A DNA stretch of 64,000 nt from NCBI RefSeq assembly GCF_000223215.1, contig NC_017243.1, positions 1,116,001 through 1,180,000 of the forward strand, read 5' to 3'. The position numbers and the translations under genes are program-made. The DNA is from Brachyspira intermedia PWS/A (GTDB lineage: Bacteria; Spirochaetota; Brachyspiria; Brachyspirales; Brachyspiraceae). Of the stretch, positions 29,127 through 33,426 are shown piece after piece (positions within the stretch are counted from its first letter, which is position 1; the number at the start of each line of letters is the position of its first letter). A model generated the notes under the pieces. That model was not told where the DNA came from and did not search any database. It saw nothing but the letters and a program-made list of their open reading frames with translations.

Positions 29127-30051
29127 TTAATATAAATGCCATCTGAAACCATATTTTGAAGCTTGTCTTACTCTGTAAATATCTCTTAATTTCTTATTAG
29201 GTATCCACCAAGCTATTTTATTAATTTCTTTCATTTTCTTTTCTACATATTTAGGATCGTAAGCAATACCTCCAAATTCTATCCATTTTTTATTATTTTC
29301 ATTCCATTCATTATTATTGATTCCATTCCAAAATTTTTTTCCCAGGCAGTATGTAATATATAAGCATCTTCATTATCAGCATTATTTGATAAGTAGTATC
29401 TATTATATTTATCAGAAAAATCATTAACTTCTAAATTAAATTCTTGTACCATTAAATTGAATATTGGTTGATCTGCCATTAACCATTTTTCTGTCATTTT
29501 ATAACACCATTCTTTTATTTCTTTTCTTTTTTTTATAGAATCATTTATTAAAAGTACTCCAGAATTAAATACTTTTGCATCTAAATTATATTTGTCAGAA
29601 TTGAATTTTTCTGATAAAATCTTATTTTCTACATTTTCTCTTAAATTTATGCTTTCATAAGATACGGATATATCTTTATTTATATTTAAAAGTTCTATTA
29701 TATCTTTTTGTATTAATATATCAGTATATAAATATAAAACTTTATTATAATTATCTAATAATTCAAAAGCTTCGTATCTTGCAAAAGCCATTAGACTCCA
29801 CATTAATGTACAATTAGCATTTTTCATAGTTTTTCTAATGGAGATACATAGTGATTTATTATAATATTATTATATATTTTTTTTAATGCATTTTCATCTT
29901 TTATATTGATTTTACCGCTTATATAGAGAATTATATCATAATCTTTTTCATTTAATGAAAAGTGTTTTTTCAGTCCTATTAAAACATTTCCAACAGCAAA
30001 CATTTGATTTGAAGTTGAACATAAAACAACTGCTAATTTTTTCTTTTCCAT
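29127..30051 (-). pseudogene. GT8-like glycosyltransferase, two apparent frameshifts
   Basis: Read in three frame segments, this region encodes about 308 residues matching the intact gene at 32515-33426 from end to end. The first segment runs from the ATG at 30051 to about 29835 and ends at a stop in frame; the second runs to about 29335; the third ends at 29127. Each junction is repaired by adding one base to an A run on the coding strand: A5 at 29830-29834 and A7 at 29334-29340. The DTD metal motif of the intact protein is here YTD, so one catalytic aspartate is lost independently of the frameshifts. The C-terminus carries the EINKIAWWIP motif. Likely a true pseudogene. Confidence 0.8.
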
Positions 30052-30219: not shown

Positions 30220-31002
30220 TTAATCTTTTACAAAAGCTAAATCATGAGATCTATATATATCTATTAATAATCTGTATCCTTTGGATTTCATATATTGTTC
30301 TAATACTCCTTCTTTTTCATTATTTTCTACTATGATTAATTTTATATCATATTTATTAAAATCAATGGTTTTTAGTATATTTAATTCAAAACCTTCTACA
30401 TCTATTGATAATAGATCAATTGAACTAATATTTTTGTAGTTATACATTAATTCATCAAATGTCATTGATTTTATATTTAAAGAATTTTCTTTAGATTCAG
30501 ATATATCAATTTTAGCCATTAAACTATGTCCTTCATAGTTTACTAATTTAACACTATCCATTTTTTTATCTAAAATAGCAGCATTGTATAGATCACAATT
30601 TCTGTTTTTTTCTAATTGTTCATAAATTATCGGATTGGCTTCAACGCATATACCAGACCATCCTAATTTTTCAAAAAAGTAAGTGTTGCTGATTTTTATT
30701 CCATCATTAGCTCCTATATCTATAAAAAATCCTTTTTTCTTACCTGAAAATATTAAGTATGATATAAAATCTTGTTCTATTTCTGATTGGAAATTAATAT
30801 TTGTTTGTTTTTCTATCTTTAGTTTAGATTCATATAAATTTTTACCAAAATCTAATACATCATTAAATTTTTCTAAATTTTTTTTATTATTATTAATTTT
30901 TGAAATGTATATATATGATAATAAAATATTTCTTATATTATTCCTTAATTCTCTTTTAGGTATCCACCATACAATTTTATTTATCAATTCTTTATTTAAC
31001 AT
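30220..31002 (-). CDS. FkbM-family methyltransferase
   Basis: 260 residues. The SAM-binding motif FFIDIGANDG is near residue 95, followed by VEANPIIYEQLEKN and the later motif LLSIDVEGFELNIL, all typical of FkbM enzymes that methylate sugars or other small hydroxyl compounds. The first 25 residues carry the island-wide motif INKIVWWIPKRELR. In this setting it probably methylates a surface-glycan sugar. AGGAT lies nine bases before the ATG. The truncated GT8 fragment lies directly upstream. Confidence 0.88.
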   Translation of the reverse strand: MLNKELINKIVWWIPKRELRNNIRNILLSYIYISKINNNKKNLEKFNDVLDFGKNLYESKLKIEKQTNINFQSEIEQDFISYLIFSGKKKGFFIDIGANDGIKISNTYFFEKLGWSGICVEANPIIYEQLEKNRNCDLYNAAILDKKMDSVKLVNYEGHSLMAKIDISESKENSLNIKSMTFDELMYNYKNISSIDLLSIDVEGFELNILKTIDFNKYDIKLIIVENNEKEGVLEQYMKSKGYRLLIDIYRSHDLAFVKD

Positions 31003-31037: not shown

Positions 31038-31328
31038 TTATATCGAAATTCTGTAAAACATAGCTGCAGAGAAATGTACTTTAGAAGGAATTTTTTCAAA
31101 CCATTCATCGTACATTTTTATGTCCGGAGTATAAAAATTAATTTCGCATTCTTTTATGTTTTTTAACGAAAGTATTTTATCTTTGTTTTCTTTAGTTATT
31201 CCGCCATCTATTAAATGAAATATTATTTTTTCATCTTCTAAAGAGTTTTTTAAGATTGATGCAATAGCTGTACCCATATACGGAGCATAATTGTTATCAG
31301 ATGATAAGCAAATATTCATTTCAATCAT
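31038..31328 (-). pseudogene. Truncated GT8 glycosyltransferase fragment
   Basis: 96 residues corresponding to only the first third of a GT8 enzyme: MNICLSSDNNYAPYMGTAIA is the usual GT8 start, and the protein stops at AAMFYRISI where full proteins go on with the catalytic core. No further coding sequence fits before the FkbM gene 35 bases on, so the remainder was deleted rather than frameshifted. The DXD motif is missing, so it is not active by itself. It starts two bases after the stop of the preceding glycosyltransferase gene. Confidence 0.8.
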
Positions 31329-31330
31329 TT

Positions 31331-32272
31331 TTATTTATTATCCTTTTTTATAAAAAGGCCTTTTATTTGTCTTATAATTCTTTTTATCTCTCTAGTGATA
31401 TTATATGATAAAGAAAAAGGCTTTATATTAAATCTTTTTATAGCTATTTCAAAATCAGCATTAGCATCACACTTTATTTCTTTTGGGTGAATTAAATGTT
31501 CAGCATCTATAGGGTATGTTTTTCTATTGGCATTTTCATCATCTGGATTTCCTGTATGAGTAGAATCTTCTCCAAAGCCTATATTAGAAATTAAATTTAC
31601 ATTAGGATTAATACATATTCCATCTTTTGAAATTATACAATAAGTCCATTGATAGTCCCAAGTATTTATATCAGCAGTTCTGTAAAACCAGTTCTGCCAA
31701 TAGTCTCTTATATTAAAATCATTGTAGCGTTTTTTTAAAGTCTTTTTAGTATCTTTAAAACTAATAGTCTTCATTGTAGCATCATAATATTTCCAAGCAC
31801 GACTCCAAGAAGCCCAGCCCCAACAATGCTGTATAGTAGCAAAATAATAACTAGCCTCTCCAACTTTTCTATCTAAAGGAGAATCTCCAGCAATATGCAT
31901 TATTTGTTCATTATCTTTATAGTAATTTAACAATTTCTCACAGTAATAAAAAAATGATATTTCAGGCAATACATCATCTTCCAATATTATACCTTGTTCT
32001 TCATTATCAAAAAACCAAGTTATCGCTTTTGATACACCATTACAGCATCCTAAATTTGTATCCTGAAATAATGTTTTTATTTCACATTCCCAATCTATAG
32101 ATTTTAAAATACTTTCTCTAGTGTCAATACATTTTATTTTTTCTTCTTCATTTCTCCAGCCATCAGCTGCTATATATAATTTTTTAGGTTTTATTTTTCT
32201 TATTGCTTCTAAAACTTTTAATGCTGTATCTTTTCTTTTAAAAATTACTAATAATATTGGAGTATCAAACAT
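31331..32272 (-). CDS. Glycosyltransferase, GT2-like (GT-A fold)
   Basis: 313 residues. Begins with PILLVIFKRKDTALKVLEAI and has a nucleotide-sugar metal motif ILEDDVLP, followed by a conserved tryptophan-rich stretch (HCWGWASWSRAWKYYD) seen in this family of surface-glycan transferases. Cytoplasmic or membrane-associated, acting on a lipid- or protein-linked glycan. GGAG lies nine bases before the ATG. The small repeat ORF upstream ends two bases before this start, so translation of this gene may depend on it. Confidence 0.85.
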   Translation of the reverse strand: MFDTPILLVIFKRKDTALKVLEAIRKIKPKKLYIAADGWRNEEEKIKCIDTRESILKSIDWECEIKTLFQDTNLGCCNGVSKAITWFFDNEEQGIILEDDVLPEISFFYYCEKLLNYYKDNEQIMHIAGDSPLDRKVGEASYYFATIQHCWGWASWSRAWKYYDATMKTISFKDTKKTLKKRYNDFNIRDYWQNWFYRTADINTWDYQWTYCIISKDGICINPNVNLISNIGFGEDSTHTGNPDDENANRKTYPIDAEHLIHPKEIKCDANADFEIAIKRFNIKPFSLSYNITREIKRIIRQIKGLFIKKDNK

Positions 32273-32274
32273 AT

Positions 32275-32460
32275 TTATTGCTCCAATATATTAATTTTTG
32301 ATTGTATTTTTATAGCAACAATACCCCATATTTTTACAATATGGGGGAATAAAAAATACGATTTTATTTTTAACTGTTGTGTTGTGTTGTGTTGTGTTGT
32401 GTTGTGTTGTGTTGTGTTGTGTTGTGTTGTGTTGTGTTGTGTTGTGTTGTGTTGTGTCAT
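32275..32460 (-). CDS. Small ORF containing the pentanucleotide repeat
   Basis: 61 codons in the present frame: ATG followed at once by 16 copies of the repeat, read as repeating TQHNT, then about 32 further residues, stopping at 32275, two bases before the next start codon. I infer it works as a length-variable leader rather than as a protein. With one repeat fewer the frame reads through NKIVFFIPPY (the island motif) and stops about 20 bases earlier; with one more it stops immediately after the repeats. No ribosome site of good quality is visible before the ATG. Confidence 0.4.
   Translation of the reverse strand: MTQHNTTQHNTTQHNTTQHNTTQHNTTQQLKIKSYFLFPHIVKIWGIVAIKIQSKINILEQ
32324..32346. 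promoter_or_regulatory. Hairpin between the repeat tract and the GT2-like gene
   Basis: A perfect 9-base-pair stem (CCCCATATT, 5-base loop, AATATGGGG). No T run follows on the minus strand, so it is probably not a simple terminator. It lies within the small repeat ORF, where a translating ribosome would open it, and could act as an attenuator or hide the downstream start. Confidence 0.5.
32376..32457. repeat. Simple sequence repeat, (GTTGT)16
   Basis: Sixteen perfect tandem copies of GTTGT (32376-32455) plus two further bases. Such tracts change copy number by slipped-strand mispairing. Five is not a multiple of three, so each change shifts the reading frame of the small ORF that contains it on the minus strand. 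Confidence 0.98.
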
Positions 32461-32514
32461 AATAAAAACCTTATAGAGAGAATATTAACTTTGTATATAA
32501 TAAAAGTCAATATA

Positions 32515-33426
32515 TTATCTTCCTGTAAGTCCTGATTTTCTTAATAAATATCTTCTTACTTTATCTCTCAATTTAAATGTAGGTATCCACCAAACAATCT
32601 TATCTATTTTTTTTCTTTTAGCGTTATTTTCTTTATAAGTTTGGCTTCCGCCTGATTCTATCCATATTTTATTGTTTTCTTCCCAAAATTTATTGTAAGT
32701 ACCTCTCCAGAATTTATCTGGACCTATAGCATGTATTATATGGGATTTATCTGCATTTTCTGATTTTGGAAAACAGCAGAAAGTTTCTTTTGCATCTAAT
32801 AGTTGTATATTAAATTCTTGACATGCTAAATTCAATATAACTAAATCATTAGTTATATATTCTTCAGTTTTTTTGTAGCACCATTCTGCTATATTTTTAT
32901 AATCTTTTATTTTATCTGATATTATTATATTTCCATCATAAAAAGAATTGCAATCTATATTATATTTAGTTTTTTCTAAAATAGGTATTGTTTCTTTAGT
33001 TTGTGCAGAATTACGTATTGAAATATCAGATAATGTTGCATATAGCTCGAAGTCTAAATTTATTAAATGTGAAATATCTTTTTGTATAACAATATCAGTA
33101 TCTGTATAAAAAACTTTTTGGTAATTATCGAGTATATTAAAAGCTTCAAATCTTGCATAAGCAAAGACACTAAAATTATTTAATTCTCTTAATTCTATCA
33201 TTTTTTTCGAGAATGGTGATTCATATATTTTTATAATTATTCTAGGAAAAATTGTTTTTAAAGCTTTTTCATCATTTGGTTCTAATTTATTTGTATAAAA
33301 TATTATGTCATATTCTTCATCTTTTAAATTTTGAAATAAATATTTTTTTGCTCCTATTATAACATTTCCAACAGCAAAAGCCTCATTTCCTGTTGAGCAT
33401 AAAAGTAAAGCGATTTTTTTCTTCAT
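32515..33426 (-). CDS. GT8-like glycosyltransferase (intact)
   Basis: 303 residues. N-terminal KKIALLLCSTGNEAFAVGNV, then the metal-binding DTD in VFYTDTDIVIQKD at about residue 105, and a C-terminal histidine motif IIHAIG. This is the GT8 layout for sugar transfer from a nucleotide donor. The C-terminus ends with DKIVWWIPTFKLRDKVRR, the island-wide motif. First gene of the minus-strand island; a TAGGA ribosome site precedes the ATG. It is the intact counterpart of the pseudogene at 29127-30051. Confidence 0.85.
   Translation of the reverse strand: MKKKIALLLCSTGNEAFAVGNVIIGAKKYLFQNLKDEEYDIIFYTNKLEPNDEKALKTIFPRIIIKIYESPFSKKMIELRELNNFSVFAYARFEAFNILDNYQKVFYTDTDIVIQKDISHLINLDFELYATLSDISIRNSAQTKETIPILEKTKYNIDCNSFYDGNIIISDKIKDYKNIAEWCYKKTEEYITNDLVILNLACQEFNIQLLDAKETFCCFPKSENADKSHIIHAIGPDKFWRGTYNKFWEENNKIWIESGGSQTYKENNAKRKKIDKIVWWIPTFKLRDKVRRYLLRKSGLTGR

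Follow-up and report, generated by a model that had tools for sequence, protein, structure and literature searches.

The GTTGT array of Brachyspira intermedia PWS/A probably opens a translated leader ORF and makes it prone to slippage; this leader would belong to a self-contained switch cassette of ~240 nt controlling the glycosyltransferase gene downstream. We use the window for the whole stretch of DNA analysed (64,000 nucleotides of contig NC_017243.1, positions 1,116,001 to 1,180,000), and coordinates are numbered from its first letter. Tandem Repeats Finder places at 32375-32457 an array of period 5, with 16.6 copies and 100% matches over 83 bp, at a score of 166 compared with 79 for the second-best array of the 64 kb window. 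It is also the sole (GTTGT)4 array in the whole genome (3,308,048 bp), and a perfect period-5 tract of 83 bp is far beyond chance. The minus-strand ATG at 32460-32458 immediately precedes it, so that a perfect GTTGT repeat right after a minus-strand ATG, as given in the preliminary description, is borne out in full, with 16.6 copies and no mismatch. On the minus strand, the order of elements is the GT8 gene, a promoter-like site, a Shine-Dalgarno (SD) sequence, the ATG, (ACACA)16.6, 102 nt of leader and the next gene:

32515-33426, minus strand: glycosyltransferase family 8 (GT8) gene upstream of the cassette (PF01501, 6.7e-14)
32482-32510, minus strand: putative promoter of the cassette, TTGACT-17-TAATAT, from a consensus scan; kept in the related genome G004 and in B. 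innocens
32469-32472, minus strand: SD-like AAGG of the leader ORF, 9-12 nt before the ATG, from the sequence
32275-32460, minus strand: leader ORF, 61 aa as sequenced, with its ATG at 32460 and its stop at 32277-32275, from the reading frames
32375-32457, minus strand: (ACACA)16.6 array, GTTGT when read on the plus strand (Tandem Repeats Finder)
32370-32372, minus strand: leader stop of the predicted OFF frame (17 units), ahead of the hairpin, from the reading frames
32324-32346, minus strand: terminator-like hairpin CCCCATATTGTAAAAATATGGGG followed by a weak T tract (-13.2 kcal/mol, z -3.8; stem identical in G004)
32291-32293, minus strand: third-frame leader stop (15 units), beyond the hairpin, which also ends the glycosyltransferase frame ahead of the start codon, from the reading frames
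32281-32284, minus strand: SD of the next gene, GGAG; some of its bases pair in the predicted fold (sequence and fold prediction)
31331-32272, minus strand: glycosyltransferase predicted to be under the switch, with a GT-A fold like N-acetylglucosaminyltransferase I (AlphaFold model and fold match)

None of the three frames of the leader strand meets a stop within the array. At the sequenced copy number, the leader stop lies at +97 after the array, 2 nt short of the glycosyltransferase ATG; one extra unit brings the stop to +2 and one unit fewer to +81, and the stop that a translating ribosome would meet cycles among these three positions with a period of three units as the copy number changes. 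The hairpin CCCCATATTGTAAAAATATGGGG occupies +28 to +50 after the array, with 23 nt between the end of the +2 stop codon and its start. Set against this position, the three stops imply that the +2 frame leaves the hairpin free, while the other two run through it. A Pfam match of the leader ORF to ZSWIM8 fell below the cut-off and was rejected because it is explained by low complexity.

In the likely switching mechanism, slippage in growing cells would add or remove one 5-base unit and change the reading frame of the leader. With 14, 17 or 20 copies, ribosomes would quit the message ahead of the hairpin, and the free hairpin would lower glycosyltransferase expression by stopping transcription and/or by keeping the ribosome site concealed. 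With 15/16 and 18/19 copies, ribosomes would pass through the hairpin; at the sequenced 16 copies, leader ribosomes would end 2 nt before the glycosyltransferase ATG, and the gene would be expressed (predicted ON). The surface glycan would then vary at random from cell to cell. Counting against a cassette switch, a transcript from the GT8 promoter could serve the downstream gene too.

Pfam and NCBIfam searches with the downstream protein (31331-32272) gave no match. Its AlphaFold model, built from 18 related sequences, has a mean pLDDT of 88.7 and superposes on N-acetylglucosaminyltransferase I with Z 20.7 over 223 residues; the LEDD motif at residues 97-100 is invariant in the alignment, and the predicted model combines the GT-A fold with a conserved acidic metal site. 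Because the fold matches to N-acetylglucosaminyltransferase I and POMGNT1 (Z 19-21) stand well above the next group (~15), the protein is, on the predicted model, most likely a GT-A glycosyltransferase. The array therefore does sit between two glycosyltransferase genes, as had been claimed, with PF01501 upstream and an N-acetylglucosaminyltransferase I-like predicted fold downstream. A PDB sequence search with the same protein returned designed proteins only, over ~42 residues, and the fold match was preferred to it.

The cassette is present at this site in some relatives and absent in others. In G001, G003 and G007 there is no cassette, the GT8 stop and the next ATG lie 2-3 nt apart, and the glycosyltransferase start codon is the same as in the window; the insert between the two genes measures 242 nt in the window and 230 nt in G004. 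In B. innocens (L100), the same cassette start follows GT8, and the array continues for at least 19 units up to the contig end. The window and G004 share the hairpin stem, the promoter-like boxes and the SD, while their leader peptides diverge beyond the repeat; the promoter-like site is also kept in B. innocens. The G004 leader has stops at +1, +114 and +131 flanking the same hairpin and follows the same frame logic; the whole-leader fold of this orthologue is unexceptional (z -1.3). With one genome compared per species, the copy numbers at the site (16.6 in B. intermedia, 14.0 in G004 and at least 19 in B. innocens) represent differences between species. Together with the anatomy, they fit the proposal that the repeat has the hallmark of a phase-variable locus.

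The pattern across the genus reaches well past the claim of the preliminary description. Searching for (GTTGT)3 followed by 0-4 nt and CAT, with the reversed pattern as control, we found 37 ATG-adjacent sense arrays, partly related and not all independent, in 18 of 26 Brachyspira genomes, compared with 1 match for the control; the same pattern gave none in 270 other Spirochaetota genomes. By hand count, every three-unit pattern match in G000, G004, G006, G007 and G009 is an ATG-adjacent array. The 37 arrays run from 3.4 to 39.4 units (median 14.4). An SD-like core precedes 29 of the 37 leader ATGs, compared with 21% of all window ATGs, and the 70 nt upstream of the arrays have a mean sigma-70 promoter score of 10.2 of 12 against 8.5 when shuffled (sd 0.12), with 26 upstream regions scoring at least 10 compared with 3 in the shuffles. 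In 19 of 21 leaders, compared with 7.4 expected from shuffles, one frame extends to a point no more than 30 nt from the next start; for the first L090 leader and that at L096, both of which carry an extra insert, the distance was taken to the homologous site. Family-wise counts are given where relevant: with one leader per family, the frame reaches the next start in 11 of 13 (5.6 expected, P 4e-4). Frames of both kinds, ON and OFF, are found in the assemblies; draft genomes may mis-size tandem arrays, so that single copy numbers need care and the states read from them are tentative.

On balance, we favour the view that Brachyspira possesses genus-specific switch cassettes, consisting of a promoter, an SD, an ATG-(ACAAC)n leader and, in some cases, a terminator, placed before many surface genes and read out in three ways: fusion, start-stop-coupled re-initiation and ribosome-dependent transcription attenuation. 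In the first arrangement, the repeat encodes the N-terminus of the target protein itself (L103, L108, L114, L115, L116 and L122). In the second, the long frame of the leader either overlaps the next start as ATGA (L089, L093, L118 and L120) or ends ~25 nt before it (L091, L095, L102 and L107). The third comprises leaders with an intrinsic terminator (two at L090, and L096, L097, L105 and L121); canonical terminators are seen in all of these, and the terminator leaders provide one compensatory pair, in one family. Counting against the model, no frame gets beyond the terminator at L121. The targets are glycosyltransferases (GT8, GT29-like and GT2), methyltransferases, a radical SAM protein, arylsulfotransferase lipoproteins, large unknown membrane proteins and one KilA-N protein.

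Several features of individual loci were noted alongside this survey. Arylsulfotransferase-like lipoproteins (PF05935) are the commonest switch target in the genus and occur in both leader and fused forms (L091, L095, L102, L107, L114, L116, L122 and L125). The repeat leaders at L089, L093, L110, L116, L118 and L120 precede large proteins (674-889 aa) that have a single N-terminal hydrophobic stretch (ILGxxxRxGYxSDF) and lack a Pfam match, mostly with an ATGA overlap. At L119 (genome G021), a KilA-N domain protein follows a 22.6-unit repeat leader; KilA-N proteins are often found in phages. By far the most arrays occur in G019 (uncultured spirochaete E21__bin371, 2.0 Mb; L112-L117 and L122), with 177 three-unit matches, several long arrays and some fused to arylsulfotransferase genes. 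A domain-wide scan found the ATG-array pattern in scattered other bacteria; among the 63 arrays listed there, the majority have 3-5 copies and look like chance, in contrast to a few longer ones. Arrays of the ATG-(ACAAC)n type with 12-16 units were seen in Ligilactobacillus salivarius DSM 20555 (L166), Clostridia (L198) and Pasteurellaceae (L186), some with leader-like stops and one running into a long ORF, and these could be independent cases.

The T tract after the window hairpin, TATTGTTGCT, is poor, and terminator-like sites found by consensus scan occur at 1 per 5 kb against 0.5 by chance, i.e., near chance level. The poor T tract makes translational coupling the main rival to attenuation: ribosomes stopping at the end of the leader would re-initiate, or would open the partly paired ribosome site, and the hairpin would not terminate transcription. 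We put the chance of such a purely translational readout at the window locus somewhat below even. The weak T tract favours it, as do the leader stop 2 nt from the glycosyltransferase ATG in the sequenced form, the partial pairing of the downstream SD in the predicted fold, and the leaders at L089, L093, L118 and L120, which have an ATGA overlap and no terminator. However, the hairpin stem is common to the window and G004, and clear terminators stand in leaders ahead of related glycan genes. Attenuation and translational coupling are in any case two versions of one repeat-controlled leader switch.

Three further explanations were considered. If the repeat encoded the N-terminus of the glycosyltransferase and shifted its frame, as in a classical contingency gene, the locus would resemble the six Brachyspira arrays of the fused type listed above. 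In the window, however, no frame through the array enters the glycosyltransferase because of the stop at 32293-32291, which refutes such a fusion; all three frames stop ahead of its ATG, and relatives without the repeat begin at the same methionine, leaving this reading hardly tenable. The earlier proposition that every five-base change shifts a reading frame thus holds for the separate leader ORF and fails for either glycosyltransferase, given that stop and the shared start codon of the relatives. An array that alters promoter spacing or regulator binding for a downstream promoter, with leader translation irrelevant, has counterparts elsewhere in bacteria, such as the repeats at nadA (PMC2791445). 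It is nevertheless very unlikely here, as sense orientation, SD and ATG at the 37 arrays indicate translation, and the promoter-like sites lie upstream of the ATG, so that the array falls inside the predicted transcript. We also consider it very unlikely that the array is a neutral microsatellite or matters only as a TTQHN peptide; its being open in three frames on the leader strand would suit that reading, but SD and ATG stand ahead of the arrays each time, which is unexpected under neutrality, array length runs from 3.4 to 39.4 units across the genus, and the post-repeat peptide differs between B. intermedia and G004 where the hairpin DNA is kept.

The repeat-controlled leader switch has a well-characterized counterpart in the pil1 locus of Streptococcus gallolyticus, where work with mutants proved a GCAGA-repeat leader, a premature terminator and antitermination that depends on translation (PMC3894217). 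There, a leader ending at least 28 nt before the terminator goes with low expression, and one ending just before or inside it with high expression (PMC3894217). Common to the S. gallolyticus pil1/pil3 loci (Danne et al. 2014, PMC3894217) and the window leader are a short leader ORF that has an RBS and ATG of its own and contains a pentanucleotide repeat, a premature stem-loop after it, a repeat number that sets whether the stop falls before or in/after this stem-loop, and a surface structure encoded downstream. The window leader shares two traits of the pil1 type, being a short ORF with AAGG and ATG whose repeat unit is not a multiple of three and whose frames stop both before and in/after the stem-loop. 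By its anatomy, the window cassette would work like the pil1 switch, with no homology between them implied. The unit differs (GCAGA compared with ACAAC in Brachyspira), as does the scale, with two pilus loci in a Firmicute in contrast to dozens of loci across a spirochaete genus; the window cassette also sits between two glycosyltransferase genes, has a weaker T tract than pil1 and is described here from its sequence.

Repeat-in-ORF contingency genes are familiar from the tetranucleotide lipopolysaccharide genes of Haemophilus influenzae and the pentanucleotide opa genes of Neisseria. The window repeat shares with them a unit that is not a multiple of three, a position near the 5' end of an ORF and an association with surface glycan or protein genes; unlike them, it belongs to a leader ORF distinct from the glycosyltransferase, whose frame it never enters. 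Likewise, a leader stop that overlaps or adjoins the next start, in the window and at L089, L093, L118 and L120, resembles start-stop coupling (ATGA), with the difference that in Brachyspira the upstream partner is a repeat leader whose stop moves with copy number.

Brachyspira species are agents of swine dysentery and of intestinal spirochaetosis in birds and humans. If genus-wide switches do act on glycan enzymes and surface lipoproteins, they would matter for serological variability and for selecting vaccine antigens. They would also suggest that repeat-controlled attenuation, detailed in one Streptococcus species, arose independently and is used at scale. No phasome has, to our knowledge, been described before for these gut spirochaetes, so the arrays would constitute the first, and no larger use of repeat-controlled attenuation is known. 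Our literature search found no earlier report of phase variation or repeats of this kind in Brachyspira; no repeat switch is mentioned in the searched passages of the B. intermedia genome paper (PMC3163572), and neither Brachyspira nor leader attenuation figures in a 2025 review of phase variation.

Beyond the cassette and its neighbours, the glycan island of the window is decayed. The GT8 gene at 31038-31328 is cut to 96 aa, compared with 338 aa for the intact form in G004 (L092, 4488-5504), and another GT8 gene at 29279-30051 is split into two reading frames near 29826. A DxIVWWIPFxKLR-like motif occurs at the C-terminus of the 32515-33426 product and at the N-terminus of the 30220-31002 product, as well as at L090, L097, L105, L108 and L121. 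This short motif is found at the end or start of many glycan enzymes of these islands that are not otherwise related, and may be a marker of recombination joints or a membrane anchor.
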